Shown piece by piece: positions 20,217-56,054 of a stretch of 64,000 bases of DNA (its first letter is position 1; each line of letters starts with the position of its first letter). Made by a program: the position numbers and the translations under genes. Source of the DNA: Phycisphaeraceae bacterium (GTDB taxonomy: Bacteria > Planctomycetota > Phycisphaerae > Phycisphaerales > Phycisphaeraceae); the NCBI GenBank assembly GCA_029260655.1, contig JAJDCU010000072.1, positions 1-64,000 of the forward strand. Reading direction: 5' to 3'. Under the pieces are notes generated by a model. That model ran no database searches, was not told the DNA's origin, and saw only the letters and a list, made by a program, of their open reading frames with translations.

Positions 20217-20220
20217 GCGG

Positions 20221-20311
20221 GCCATTAGCTATTAGCCGTTAGCTATTAGCTACCGAAGAACGGATCAGCAGGAACACACAGTGCTAACGGCTAAAGGCTA
20301 ACAGCTAAAGG
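20221..20311. repeat. Inverted heptad-repeat hairpin between flgB and flgC
   Basis: Four heptads of type GCYRTTA (20221-20248) are followed, after 35 bases, by four heptads of opposite orientation, type CTAAMRG (20284-20311). The arms pair over about 30 bp with only a few mismatches, so the transcript can form a long stem with a loop of about 30 bases directly before flgC. No ribosome site is visible between the hairpin and the flgC ATG. Confidence 0.85.
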
Positions 20312-20320
20312 CTCATAACA

Positions 20321-21097: not shown

Positions 21098-21110
21098 GAG
21101 GAAGCCGTCC

Positions 21111-21203
21111 GCTTTTAGCCATTAGCTATTAGCTTCGGAGAAAAGAAAAAGGCGCAGGAGCGCACGGGCTTAAAGCCAAAGCTAAAGGCTGATGGCTAAA
21201 AGC
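21111..21203. repeat. Inverted heptad-repeat hairpin between fliE and fliF
   Basis: A left arm at 21111-21133 (starting GCTTTTAGCCATTAGC) and a right arm at 21181-21203 (ending GATGGCTAAAAGC) are reverse complements at about 19 of 23 positions. The loop of 47 bases is purine-rich. The arms use the same TTAGC heptad family as the flgB-flgC hairpin. GGAGG for fliF follows just downstream. Confidence 0.82.
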
Positions 21204-21226
21204 TCACCCCGGCATGGAGGCCGACG

Positions 21227-23902: not shown

Positions 23903-23914
23903 GGCGCAGGTTTG

Positions 23915-23949
23915 CTAACAGCTAACGGCTAACGGCAAAGGGCTAAATG
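23915..23949 (+). repeat. Five heptads before fliH
   Basis: Five 7-base units fill the fliG-fliH gap: CTAACAG, CTAACGG, CTAACGG, CAAAGGG, CTAAATG. They end two bases before the fliH ATG. They have the orientation of the right arms of the flgB-flgC and fliE-fliF hairpins, but there is no left arm here. Confidence 0.8.
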
Positions 23950-23951
23950 AA

Positions 23952-31684: not shown

Positions 31685-31703
31685 TGTGATAGCGCAGCTT
31701 TTC

Positions 31704-31745
31704 GCCGTTAGCTATTGGCCCAAACCCCGATCCCTGTACCCCGAT
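31704..31745 (+). repeat. Six heptads leading into flbD
   Basis: In perfect 7-base register: GCCGTTA, GCTATTG, GCCCAAA, CCCCGAT, CCCTGTA, CCCCGAT. The series ends exactly at TTG 31746, the likely flbD start. It combines both heptad types seen elsewhere, TTA-rich first, C-rich last. Confidence 0.8.
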
Positions 31746-31943
31746 TTGATCACCGTCACACGCCTTAACGGCAAACAATTCGTGATTAACGCCGAGATCA
31801 TCCGTAGCGTGGAGTCCAATCCGGACACCACGATCACACTGATGAACGGCGATCATATTATCGTGAAGGAAGACATGCAGGTGGTGGTGCGGCTCGCGGT
31901 GGACTACGGCCGGAGCCTGCGTCGGCTTCTGCCGCCGACGTGA
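31746..31943 (+). CDS. flbD: FlbD/SwrD-family flagellar protein
   Basis: FlbD/SwrD is a small protein found next to flgE or motA in many phyla and needed for full motor power. I propose TTG 31746 as start. The product then begins LITVTRLNGKQFVINAEIIRSVE, matching the family's usual beginning, and is 65 residues long. The open frame extends up to a GTG at 31686, but the extra 20 residues would be encoded by heptad repeats. The middle shows TTITLMNGDHIIVKEDMQVVV, typical of the family. Confidence 0.85.
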   Translation: MITVTRLNGKQFVINAEIIRSVESNPDTTITLMNGDHIIVKEDMQVVVRLAVDYGRSLRRLLPPT

Positions 31944-32873: not shown

Positions 32874-32877
32874 GAGA

Positions 32878-32933
32878 GCCGTTAGCCGTAAGCCATTAGC
32901 TACCCGACCGCCGCCCCCAACCCCGATCAGCCC
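32878..32933 (+). repeat. Eight heptads running into the motB start
   Basis: In strict 7-base register from 32878: GCCGTTA, GCCGTAA, GCCATTA, GCTACCC, GACCGCC, GCCCCCA, ACCCCGA, TCAGCCC. The ATG of motB follows directly at 32934. No Shine-Dalgarno sequence is visible, as the repeats occupy its place. Confidence 0.82.
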
Positions 32934-33692
32934 ATGGCCAAGAAGTGTAAATGTCCCCCGCCCGGCGCACCCGATTGGGTTTTGACCTTCGGGGACATGA
33001 TGTCGCTGCTGCTGACGTTCTTCATCCTGCTGCTGTCGTTGTCGGAGATCAAAAAGGAAGACGAGTGGAAGGCGATGGTGGAGGAGGTGAAGAAGTCATT
33101 TGGGATGAAAGGCGGTGGGGGGCGCTTGCCGACCGACAACGACCCGGCCCTGACGCTGGTGCAGATCCTCGAGACGGTCCAGAACCAGCAGCGCCGCGAG
33201 CAGAACACCGCCAACACCGACGACCCGGGGATGTCCGGCCGGGACCAGCGGGTGACCACGGTCCGCCAGGGCGATTACATCCCGGTCGGGGGAATGGTCA
33301 CGTTCCAGCCCGGATCGGCCGATCTTACCGACAGGGCCAAGGAGAAGATCCGAGGCTTTATCGAGCAAGAGGAGTTCGACATCCGTGGCACGAACTACAT
33401 CATCGAGCTTCGGGGCCACGCCGCGGCGGCGGAGGTCGACCGGGTCCAGGGCGGGGTCGACTTATGGGACCTTAGCTTCGACCGCACCAAGGCCGTGATG
33501 CGTTACCTGGTCAGCGACGAAGTCGGGCTGCGAGAGGAGCAGATCCGGTTGATCGGCAACGCCGACCGTGAGCCGTTGAAGAAACAGGCGTACACCCCCG
33601 CGGACCGCCAGGCCAACCGCCGGGTCGAGATCCTGGTCAGCGAAAATGTGATCAAAGATTATTCGGTGAAACGCGGCTTGCCCTCGTGGTAG
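32934..33692 (+). CDS. motB: Flagellar stator protein MotB
   Basis: MotB anchors the stator to peptidoglycan and carries ions. The 252-residue protein starts with KKCKCPPPGAPDWVLTFGDMMSLLLTFFILLLS. The Asp in FGDMM within the single membrane segment (about 20-40) is the ion-binding residue. A plug/linker and an OmpA-type domain follow (about 115-245), with IIELRGHAAAAEVD, LSFDRTKAVMRYLV and RQANRRVEILV. Gene order motA-motB is standard. Confidence 0.95.
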   Translation: MAKKCKCPPPGAPDWVLTFGDMMSLLLTFFILLLSLSEIKKEDEWKAMVEEVKKSFGMKGGGGRLPTDNDPALTLVQILETVQNQQRREQNTANTDDPGMSGRDQRVTTVRQGDYIPVGGMVTFQPGSADLTDRAKEKIRGFIEQEEFDIRGTNYIIELRGHAAAAEVDRVQGGVDLWDLSFDRTKAVMRYLVSDEVGLREEQIRLIGNADREPLKKQAYTPADRQANRRVEILVSENVIKDYSVKRGLPSW

Positions 33693-46563: not shown

Positions 46564-46569
46564 GTGCGA

Positions 46570-46631
46570 GCCATTAGCCATTAGCCGTTAGCTATTAGCC
46601 CAACCCCAACCCCCAACCCCGAATCCCCACC
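46570..46631 (+). repeat. Nine heptads before the DUF1802 gene
   Basis: Consecutive 7-base units: GCCATTA, GCCATTA, GCCGTTA, GCTATTA, GCCCAAC, CCCAACC, CCCAACC, CCGAATC, CCCACC(A). The last unit shares its final A with the ATG at 46632. It is the cleanest example of the composite design, four TTA-type then five C-rich heptads. Confidence 0.85.
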
Positions 46632-47201
46632 ATGCTCGATACCGCGCTGAAAGAATGGGCCGTCGTCTGTGACCTGCTGTTGTCCGGTGAGCTGGCGCTG
46701 TTGCTGCGCAAAGGCGGGATCCACGAGTCCGGCGGGCCGGGGGTGTTTGAACTGGAGCACCCCAGGTTTCTGCTGTACCCGTCTTTTGTGCATCAAAAGC
46801 CGCAGATGCTCAAGCCGGGGTTGCGTGACCGGGTTGAGGTGTTGGACGCAGAGCCCGCCGAGGTGACGTTCCGGGGTGTCGGCGAGGCGGCGAAGATATG
46901 GCAAGTCACGTCGCGCGAATCGTTTGATCAACTCGACGACCTGCACTGCTGGTCGCCCGCGCAGGTCGACATGCGTTTTAATTACAAGCCGGACCGGCCG
47001 CTGTTCCTGATGGCCGTCCGCGCCTACCGCCTGCAAGCGCCCCAAGCGGTCGCCAGCCACGCCGAGTATGCCGGGTGCCGCAGTTGGATCGCGCTTCGGC
47101 CCGGTGATGTGGTGGATGACAGACCCGCAACGCCTGTCATCGCCGACGATCCCTTCGCCGCAATGATCGATCGGATCGATCAGGCGTTTGGCCGCGAATA
47201 A
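46632..47201 (+). CDS. DUF1802 family protein
   Basis: This 189-residue soluble protein starts LDTALKEWAVVCDLLLSGELALLLRKGGIHESG and continues with FELEHPRFLLYPSFVHQKPQMLKPG. That is the pattern of the DUF1802 family, small proteins of unknown biochemical role found in planctomycetes, cyanobacteria and others. The start is preceded directly by heptad repeats. No catalytic motif is recognised. It stands alone between argS and a convergent membrane-protein gene. Confidence 0.8.
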   Translation: MLDTALKEWAVVCDLLLSGELALLLRKGGIHESGGPGVFELEHPRFLLYPSFVHQKPQMLKPGLRDRVEVLDAEPAEVTFRGVGEAAKIWQVTSRESFDQLDDLHCWSPAQVDMRFNYKPDRPLFLMAVRAYRLQAPQAVASHAEYAGCRSWIALRPGDVVDDRPATPVIADDPFAAMIDRIDQAFGRE

Positions 47202-54129: not shown

Positions 54130-54199
54130 GTACGTGCGTGTGGCGTTGCCTCCGCGACAAGTCGCGGCGCTTCATAGGGGAACTCTGCGTGACCGATGA

Positions 54200-54269
54200 A
54201 TCCCCAATCCCCGCCCCCCAACTCACGACACCTGATCCCCGACACCCGATCCTGATATCCTAATCCCCC
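54200..54269 (+). repeat. Ten C-rich heptads running into lnt
   Basis: In register backward from the ATG at 54270, ten units of 7 bases fit the pattern AYCCCNR (for example ATCCCCA, ATCCCCG, ACACCTG, ACACCCG, ATCCTGA, ATCCCCC). The series ends exactly at the start codon. There is no TTA-type block here and no Shine-Dalgarno sequence. Confidence 0.8.
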
Positions 54270-56054
54270 ATGTCAGCGACCCCGGAACGACCCACGCATG
54301 TGGCCCTGCCGCGGACCGGCATCCGATCGGTGACGGCGCACCTGATTCTTGCGGGGGCGTCGGCGGTCATGCTCGCTTTCAGTTTTGCGCCGTGGGGATG
54401 TTGGTGGTTGGCTTATGTCGCACTGGTGCCGGCGGGCGTGCTGGCGGCGCGCGGTTGTTCTTTGCGCCGGCTGGCGTGGACCTCGTTTGCGGTGTTCTGG
54501 GCCTGGTGGCTGATCATGCTGGCTTGGGTCGTGCCGGTGACCCAGGGCGGGTACGTCGCGTTGTCGGCGTTGATGGCAGCGTACTGGGCGCTGGCGCTGG
54601 TCCTGGCCAACCGGCTGGCCAGCCGATACCGCACAGCGATGGTCCTGCTGCTGCCGATGGTTTGGGTCAGCTGCGAATGGCTGCGCGGCTACTTCCTGGC
54701 GGGGGGGTTTGGGTGGTTCGCGCTTGGGCACAGCCAGGGTTCGTTTCAGGTCGGCCAGCCCGTCGGCCGGGTCGTGCAGATCGCCGATCTGTTTGGGCAG
54801 TGGGGCGTCAGCTTCGTTTTGGTGATGACCAGCGGCCTGCTGGTTGACCTGATGACCCGCCCGATCATGAGACCGATCGGCCACGGCAAACACCGCATGC
54901 ACACGTCCACGCGCGGCGGCCTGATCCTTTGGCTGGTCGTCATCGTGTCGGCCTGGTTTTACGGCAACTACCGGGTTGGCCAGTGGGGCCAGGCGACCCA
55001 TCCCGGCCCGAGCGTCACGGTGGTGCAGACCAACGTCCCGCAGGACAACAAGGTCCGTCGCACCGCGGAGAACAACGCCAAGGACTGGCAGCGGATGGTC
55101 GAGCTGACACGCCAGGCCACGGCGGGCGCAGACGTGCCCGACCTGATCGTCTGGCCCGAGACGATGACGCCCGCGCCGGTCAACCCCGAGGCGGTCGCGT
55201 TTTTCCGATCGACCGACAGCTACTTCAGCGGCGCGGAGGTCTACCACGAGCGGATCGGATCCCTTTCGCGGACGCTTGGGGTCAACCTGTTGGTCGGCTC
55301 GCACGCTTACGAGGCCTTCACCGTCGTGACCTTCCCCGACGGCGAGGTCGGGCCCGTCCCCGAGCGCAAGTACAACGCGGCTTACCTCTACTACGCCGAC
55401 GGCGAACAGGCCCCGATGCGTTACGACAAGATGCACCGCGTGCCGTTCGGCGAGTACACCCCCTGGGTCGGCGCTTTCCCGAAGGTCAAGGCGCTGTTCA
55501 TCAAATGGTTCACCCCGTACGACTTCGATTATTCCTTGGCCGAGGGTTTGATCCGGACCGTGTTCGACGTCCCGATCCAGCATGCGGAGGGCTCAGCCGA
55601 GCCAATAGCCTCTGTGGTGCGCGTGGTGACCCCGATCTGCTACGAAGACGCGGTCGGGCGTGTGGTCCGGTCTCTGGTGTATGACCGCGGCGGAGCCAAG
55701 CGGGCGGACCTGATCGTGAACCTGACCAACAGCGCCTGGTACCCCGGGCACAGCCAGCAGCCCCAGCACTTTCAGATCGCCACGCTGCGTTGCATCGAGA
55801 ACCGGGTGCCGATGGCCCGCAGCGTCAACGGGGGGATCAGCGGGTTCGTCGATTCGATCGGCCGGGTAGGTCCGGTGGTGACGGCGGGGGGCCAAAGCCA
55901 GTGGGTCGACGGCGTTCAGGGGGCCCGGCTGCGCGTCGATGACCGACAGACCCTTTATGGCCGATGCGGCGACCTGCCGGTCATCTGCCTGGCGGGTTTG
56001 ATCGCGCTGATGCTGGGTTGGGGTATGCTTAGGCCCCCCAGCCCCGGGGACTGA
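54270..56054 (+). CDS. lnt: Apolipoprotein N-acyltransferase
   Basis: Lnt adds the third acyl chain to lipoproteins in the inner membrane. This 594-residue protein has about six to seven membrane helices in the first 230 residues (including FGWFALGHSQGSFQV) and one at the C-terminus. The periplasmic nitrilase domain has the catalytic triad Glu297 (WPETMTP), Lys387 (YDKMHRVPFGEYTPW) and Cys457 (ICYEDAVGR). NLTNSAWYPGHSQQPQHFQIATLRCIENR is also typical. It is longer than the 512-residue E. coli protein. Several lipoproteins in the window would be substrates. Confidence 0.96.
   Translation: MSATPERPTHVALPRTGIRSVTAHLILAGASAVMLAFSFAPWGCWWLAYVALVPAGVLAARGCSLRRLAWTSFAVFWAWWLIMLAWVVPVTQGGYVALSALMAAYWALALVLANRLASRYRTAMVLLLPMVWVSCEWLRGYFLAGGFGWFALGHSQGSFQVGQPVGRVVQIADLFGQWGVSFVLVMTSGLLVDLMTRPIMRPIGHGKHRMHTSTRGGLILWLVVIVSAWFYGNYRVGQWGQATHPGPSVTVVQTNVPQDNKVRRTAENNAKDWQRMVELTRQATAGADVPDLIVWPETMTPAPVNPEAVAFFRSTDSYFSGAEVYHERIGSLSRTLGVNLLVGSHAYEAFTVVTFPDGEVGPVPERKYNAAYLYYADGEQAPMRYDKMHRVPFGEYTPWVGAFPKVKALFIKWFTPYDFDYSLAEGLIRTVFDVPIQHAEGSAEPIASVVRVVTPICYEDAVGRVVRSLVYDRGGAKRADLIVNLTNSAWYPGHSQQPQHFQIATLRCIENRVPMARSVNGGISGFVDSIGRVGPVVTAGGQSQWVDGVQGARLRVDDRQTLYGRCGDLPVICLAGLIALMLGWGMLRPPSPGD

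Follow-up and report, generated by a model that had tools for sequence, protein, structure and literature searches.

The draft genome of a Phycisphaeraceae planctomycete (G000, 3.52 Mb) contains, between its genes, tandem arrays of a 7-base unit with a TTAGC core, and the orientation of these arrays follows the nearer gene boundary: TTAGC reads away from that boundary in 43 of 49 gap arrays and in the opposite direction in 6 of 49 (P-value = 5.7e-8, assuming independent arrays). Because the TTAGC arrays point away from the nearer boundary, the order on the sense strand of a codirectional gap is stop codon, TTAGC array, spacer, inverse (GCTAA) array, and start codon. We consider it plausible, with somewhat less than even confidence, that such gaps form intercistronic hairpins that would occlude the next ribosome-binding site and bring about translational coupling. 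The window discussed below is a stretch of 64,000 nucleotides of this genome (G000:C72:1–64000). For rplB, Planctomycetota bacterium Dive100_bin3.48 gave a hit of identical location and score to that of G003, a member of the window's genus, which places the genus in Planctomycetota. Genome-wide statements are based on pattern counts and on approximately 0.83 Mb of sampled stretches, and start codons are predicted throughout.

The genome (3.5 Mb) contains 73 matches of TTAGCYRTTAGC and 0 of the reversed pattern, and by our own count these matches represent approximately 39 distinct heptad sites. The initial annotation of the window had described heptads of two unit types in strict register; this description is correct, and the excess is also present genome-wide, outside of the window. 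Its assertion that the repeats fill gene gaps is overstated, as approximately 39 sites in 3.5 Mb occupy a small minority of gaps. Nor does a 7-base period pervade the gaps: in an unbiased gap sample of 452 kb, the averaged autocorrelation at lag 7 was not raised, and we therefore rejected a general periodicity of all gaps and regard the elements as sparse. Searching for two cores at lag 7 with at most one mismatch in 438 kb around the TTAGCYRTTAGC hits of G000, we found 54 TTAGC arrays in gaps and 8 in called genes. In the same 438 kb, six control 5-mers gave 1–9 arrays in gaps and other periods 0–6, with 95 arrays at period 14; arrays of TAGCT are TTAGC arrays out of register.

The unit has a 5+2 structure, in which the TTAGC core (each base 89–99 per cent conserved among 201 units) is followed by a C/T-biased position and then by a nearly free one; by the same unit measure, arrays consist of 2–5 units each. 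The main rival to the coupling hairpin holds that these are neutral or selfish repeats of the STRR type, with replication favoring 7-base units that survive only between genes and with inverted copying (template switching) giving rise to the hairpins incidentally. We view neutral 7-base slippage with inverted copying as possible but rather doubtful, and the conservation of the core across approximately 200 units, while two positions drift, speaks against it. Stops in all three frames, which a period that is not a multiple of three would supply, are disfavored as the purpose of the units, given that the T and C flanking TAG are approximately as conserved as TAG itself and that the C-rich units are without any stop.

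All seven places in the window that the initial annotation had named do exist, the block before the gene that it calls lnt being the weakest. The TTA-type blocks that it placed before flgC, fliF, and fliH are present, but the gaps before flgC and fliF each hold two mutually inverted blocks, and the fliH block reads GCTAA, not TTAGC, on the sense strand. Specifically, the flgB–flgC gap (20217–20320) has a stop-side TTAGC array at 20221–20250 (plus strand) and a start-side inverse array at 20283–20315 (minus strand), the last unit of which, GCTAAAGG, contains the Shine–Dalgarno (SD)-like AAAGG. The corresponding arrays of the fliE–fliF gap (21098–21226) are located at 21111–21134 (plus strand) and 21181–21206 (minus strand), and the gap before the gene annotated as fliH (23903–23951) has a start-side GCTAA array alone (23914–23946, minus strand). 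The remaining four sites are all on the plus strand. Between motA and motB (gap 32874–32933; both genes identified by Pfam), a stop-side TTAGC array at 32877–32900 is succeeded by C-rich heptads at 32905–32933, which reach the motB ATG at 32934. The argS–DUF1802 gap (46564–46631; flanking genes identified by Pfam) combines a left TTAGC array at 46570–46600, with cores at 46574, 46581, 46588, and 46595, and a right array of C-rich heptads at 46599–46629 that leads to the ATG at 46632 with no SD. In the gap before a putative flbD (31685–31746; start TTG at 31747, protein sequence ITVTRLNG), remnants of a TTAGC array are followed by C-rich heptads, and the gene annotated as lnt (ATG at 54270) is preceded by a C-rich heptad-like leader of weak periodicity (54199–54269).

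In sampled gaps, the TTAGC array begins mostly 3–20 nt past the stop codon, the spacer between the arms is A-rich and approximately 40 nt long, and the inverse GCTAA array, present in approximately half of the gaps, ends mostly within approximately 10 nt of the next start. The G000 sample comprises 14 paired, 14 left-only, and 3 right-only gaps. Ahead of the next start there is either a GCTAA inverse, with which an RNA hairpin is possible, or a C-rich array, with neither hairpin nor SD. Left-only gaps often have C-rich heptads before the start (argS–DUF1802, motA–motB, obg, thrS, and others), which accounts for the succession of TTA type and C-rich type reported in the initial annotation; a fixed order within gaps does exist, but the positional rule (TTAGC after the stop, C-rich or GCTAA before the start) and the inverted pairs had been missed. 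In codirectional gaps, the start side has 18 C-rich 8-mers and 0 G-rich ones, and the stop side has 9 C-rich and 13 G-rich 8-mers.

The SD motifs used by the genome, as seen in start-site profiles, are GGAG, peaking approximately 10–12 nt ahead of starts, and AAAGG, peaking at approximately 13–15 nt; the 16S tail was sought as proof of the anti-SD, and the assembly has no 16S match. Twenty of the 24 GCTAA units that start 14–20 nt before an ATG are GCTAAAGG, compared to 10 of 69 units further upstream (Fisher's test; P-value = 1.7e-9, genus-wide with orthologs included), and in G000 alone the counts are 7 of 10 and 5 of 27 (P-value = 0.006). The AAAGG of the GCTAA units at this position coincides with the genome's own AAAGG/SD peak. 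Based on this enrichment, the GCTAA arrays include the binding site, whereas the C-rich arrays have none and extend to the start codon. Hence, the earlier proposal that heptads replace an SD site is right for the C-rich blocks and wrong for the GCTAA blocks, which contain one. Enrichment of the SD unit precisely at the SD position also argues against neutral repeats.

Predicted folds of 27 two-armed gaps have a mean z of −3.5 relative to dinucleotide shuffles. Ribosomal gaps with heptads have a mean z of −3.0, those of the window's genus without heptads −1.65, and other gaps −0.84. Folds and SD position together predict that the downstream binding site is situated within a stem that begins near the upstream stop. 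The polarity of 43 versus 6, GCTAAAGG at the SD position, and folds below shuffles thus support the coupling hairpin. The two arms would pair within the polycistronic mRNA, and the ribosome-binding site of the downstream gene would lie at the base of the 3′ arm; a ribosome finishing the upstream gene would cover the base of the 5′ arm, open the stem, and free the downstream site, so that translation of the downstream gene would depend on that of the upstream one. The mechanism would serve mainly ribosomal-protein and flagellar operons; heptad units would expand and shrink by slippage, and every lineage would have a core of its own. Gaps in which the right array is C-rich would represent a second state, unstructured and SD-less, which falls outside the coupling model.

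The arms of one gap do not appear to be fitted to each other. Left and right arms of the same gap are no better matched than arms of different gaps (P-value = 0.86; G000 alone, P-value = 0.44), and a four-species alignment of the fliE–fliF gap contains no pair with both sides changed. Since own arms pair no better than swapped ones and this alignment lacks two-sided changes, pairing appears to be a property of the repeat class and not to be tuned per gap. The same observations count against the coupling hairpin, as does the lack of a heptad partner for approximately half of the G000 arrays; generic arms and common unpaired arrays are what neutral repeats would produce. An earlier positive test for gap-specific pairing (P-value = 0.0055) was discarded as biased, because it was carried out on folded pairs and the fold picks the pairs. 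A family-wide short palindrome, GTTAGCC..GGCTAA, was dropped as well, its counts not exceeding those of the reversed control.

A stem starting mostly 3–20 nt past the stop would also suit REP-like intercistronic elements, which would affect how the mRNA decays or is processed, or how ribosomes are released near stops, and not downstream initiation. Escherichia coli REPs have been reported to stall ribosomes at such a distance after the stop, and the structure of heptad-less ribosomal gaps in the window's genus is in line with this explanation. A REP consists of one palindrome with conserved tags and is spread by a RAYT transposase. Like REPs, REPINs, and BIMEs, the elements described here are inverted repeats of small size that are scattered through intergenic regions, often inside operons, but they have no single 20–40 nt palindrome with a terminal tag; the number of units differs among their tandem-heptad arms, as do two of the seven bases. 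With tandem heptads in place of one fixed palindrome, and with a right arm specialized for the SD, we judge REP-like action unlikely.

The loops are A-rich and contain ACGGA 19 times, compared to 4.9 expected (G000 alone, 5 versus 0.95; P-value = 0.002). This enrichment and the five invariant bases in dispersed arrays would suit a binding platform on which a protein (CsrA/Csp/S1-like) recognizes either the core or the ACGGA-rich loop, in RNA or in DNA; CsrA, Csp, and S1 have been proposed for the TAACTGA heptads (PMC4679880). We consider such a platform very improbable, because the core is wholly different between genera and the polarity flips between phyla, which a conserved protein is unlikely to tolerate easily. 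The loop ACGGA resembles the CsrA core ANGGA (for example, at 20251–20282 of the window and in L132, 3177–3277), with similar loops in orthologous gaps. Homologous loops across different gaps, which would be expected of mobile copies, were not found (mean alignment score equal to that of shuffled loops).

Ribosomal heptad sites are found at rplW–rplB, rplB–rpsS, rpsS–rplV, rplN–rplX, rplX–rplE, and rpsN–rpsH, and further sites at tuf–rpmG–(tRNA)–secE, beside rpsP and rplS, in a type II secretion operon, and in the window's flagellar operon. Approximately 8 of the 39 sites adjoin ribosomal-protein genes, compared to 2–3.5 per cent expected by our own estimate (binomial P-values of 1e-6 to 5e-5). 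We compared G000 to five relatives of its genus (G001–G005), bearing in mind that orthologous gaps are non-independent samples. Heptads are kept in most of these relatives at rplB–rpsS, rpsS–rplV, rplX–rplE, rpsN–rpsH, flgB–flgC, fliE–fliF, and fliG–fliH, with differing unit numbers. In four relatives, TTAGC units follow the stop codon of the fliE–fliF gap, in most cases together with GCTAA units on the start side, and relatives have also kept the GCTAA units of the gap before fliH. The concentration beside ribosomal-protein genes and the genus-wide retention of heptads in several orthologous gaps are difficult for the neutral account, and the retention of arms with altered copy number supports the coupling hairpin. 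At rplW–rplB, heptads occur in G000 only; G002, G004, and G005 have a CCCGG..CCGGG-type hairpin there, and G013 and G030 a long hairpin with CGTTAGCC...GGCTAAA as its foot. That relatives without heptads have another hairpin in this gap supports the coupling hairpin too.

We also observed several tandem CCCGACC...GGTCGGG-type palindromes in the rplW–rplB gap of G003 (L197), where sister species have one such hairpin. In G013, which belongs to another genus, a hairpin CGTTTAGCCGTCG..CGACGC recurs in the rpsQ–rplN, rplX–rplE, and rpsN–rpsH gaps (L201).

Rfam yielded no family match in the window, and a literature search with the literal repeat sequences returned unrelated papers only. Kinship in kind with cyanobacterial STRRs, proposed in the initial annotation, is upheld, as both consist of tandem 7-base units scattered over many, mostly noncoding, sites between genes. 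One STRR class is nearly the same as the C-rich CCCCAAY units; to our knowledge, the TTAGC type is not among the classical STRR units, and we know of no placement rule described for STRRs. The suggestion that the heptads look new is true only in part. According to passages of Rehm et al. 2015 (PMC4692102), the GGGNATC and GGGGA(C/T)T heptads of Xanthomonas and Nostoc are located in sense orientation within 50 bp after stops and in antisense orientation up to 50 bp ahead of starts, prefer codirectional gaps, and have no functional class bias; they are G-rich, and G-quadruplex formation has biophysical evidence behind it. Two Xanthomonas genomes have 70 and 75 convergent pairs, so that convergent pairs with the same ORF placement were already described there. 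Like the GGGNATC heptads of these passages, our elements are dispersed and intergenic, read away from the nearer ORF boundary, form convergent pairs, and combine few conserved with some free positions, but TTAGC and CGATT cannot form G-quadruplexes, TTAGCYR having no run of at least two Gs. The C-rich arrays are closest to the heptads of those passages and would be the only ones capable of forming a G-quadruplex. Incorporation of the SD and location in ribosomal operons were found here and not in the PMC4692102 passages.

Start-side heptads, in turn, were already known from Beggiatoaceae, where TAACTGA units stand in tandem on the sense strand just before starts, also those of ribosomal-protein genes (MacGregor 2015, PMC4679880). 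They occur in Cyanobacteria and Bacteroidetes as well, are mostly direct and confined to the start side (with one indirect repeat), and rarely have canonical ribosome-binding sites (PMC4679880). The GCTAA arrays share with them the position directly before starts and a unit containing TAA; they differ in their unit, GCTAANR, and in carrying the ribosome-binding site. New here are the non-G-quadruplex cores, the lineage-wide core swaps, the ribosomal operons, and the built-in ribosome-binding site.

Among ribosomal gaps in 29 relatives, 9 have strong runs of short period at lag 7 and 11 at lag 14, and any other lag between 4 and 15 accounts for 0–1. Genera of the order other than that of the window have different cores, among them GGCTTGA and CGATT. 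GGCTTGA heptads in G027 and G011 have inverse copies in the same gap, G015 has CACGACT in a direct array only, the ribosomal gaps of G028 have AAATCG, and a CGATT core is present in G019, G028, and G055. In G019 and G028 together, CGATT arrays point away from the nearer gene in 21 cases and towards it in 3, and pairs are convergent in 15 cases and divergent in 0. Start-side arms of G028 are without AAAGG, which counts against the coupling hairpin. The acidobacterium MAG11 has 422 TTAGCYRTTAGC matches, with 16 convergent and 0 divergent pairs. Among cyanobacteria, there are 2533 matches in Microseira wollei, 1259 in UBA11371, and 1870 in Symploca, and Microseira and UBA11371 together have 17 divergent and 0 convergent pairs. 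Divergent TTAGC pairs were seen in several cyanobacteria (L039, L044, L060, L067, L078, L097, and L109), opposite to planctomycetes, the acidobacterium, and most other loci, with copies numbering in the thousands in each genome.

Polarity is therefore constant within a lineage and opposite between phyla, and both layouts let the arms pair; whole-core replacement between genera likewise preserves pairing. Judged from sequence comparison, what is mostly kept in other genera and phyla, as the sequence changes, is the inverted layout and the predicted ability to pair. Core swaps and flips of both arms that preserve pairing support the coupling hairpin. On the neutral account, a polarity fixed per lineage and reversed in cyanobacteria is what founder copies predict, and a period of 7 whatever the sequence fits equally. 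Four G019 contigs (C2, C16, C18, and C21; L220, L223, L224, and L225) end inside near-perfect CGATTGC arrays, and the short-read assembly therefore probably understates the length of these arrays. In G046, two 24-base heptad arms form a perfect inverted pair (GCCTTTAGCTGTTAGCCATTAGCC; L238, 2598–2685), which suggests a recent inverted copy. Neutral slippage draws support from both the long arrays and the perfect arms.

We raise, with considerable doubt of our own, the possibility that a single kind of intergenic element is common to several phyla, constant in form (7-base step, short genome-fixed core, inverted arrays at gap ends), whose core (TTAGC, CGATT, GGCTTGA, or GGGAATC) is swapped wholesale between lineages. 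If true, a shared process generating 7-base steps would be implied, together with a shared function as RNA hairpins within operons. The heptads of Cyanobacteria, those of Xanthomonas, and those of Beggiatoaceae have each been reported on their own and explained by their own sequence (G-quadruplex or protein site); that the same placement rule holds for non-quadruplex cores shows that the G-quadruplex explanation is not a general one. Orthologous gaps of the ribosomal operon are available in dozens of species, which makes gains and losses, swaps of the core, and any effects on translation directly testable, and the exact seven-base period across unrelated sequences becomes measurable.

One further C-rich array of the window is located on the minus strand at 1704–1736 (G-rich on the plus strand), where a perfect C-rich 14-base tandem lies within the called minus-strand ORF 1487–2260; the true start of this gene may be downstream of the tandem.
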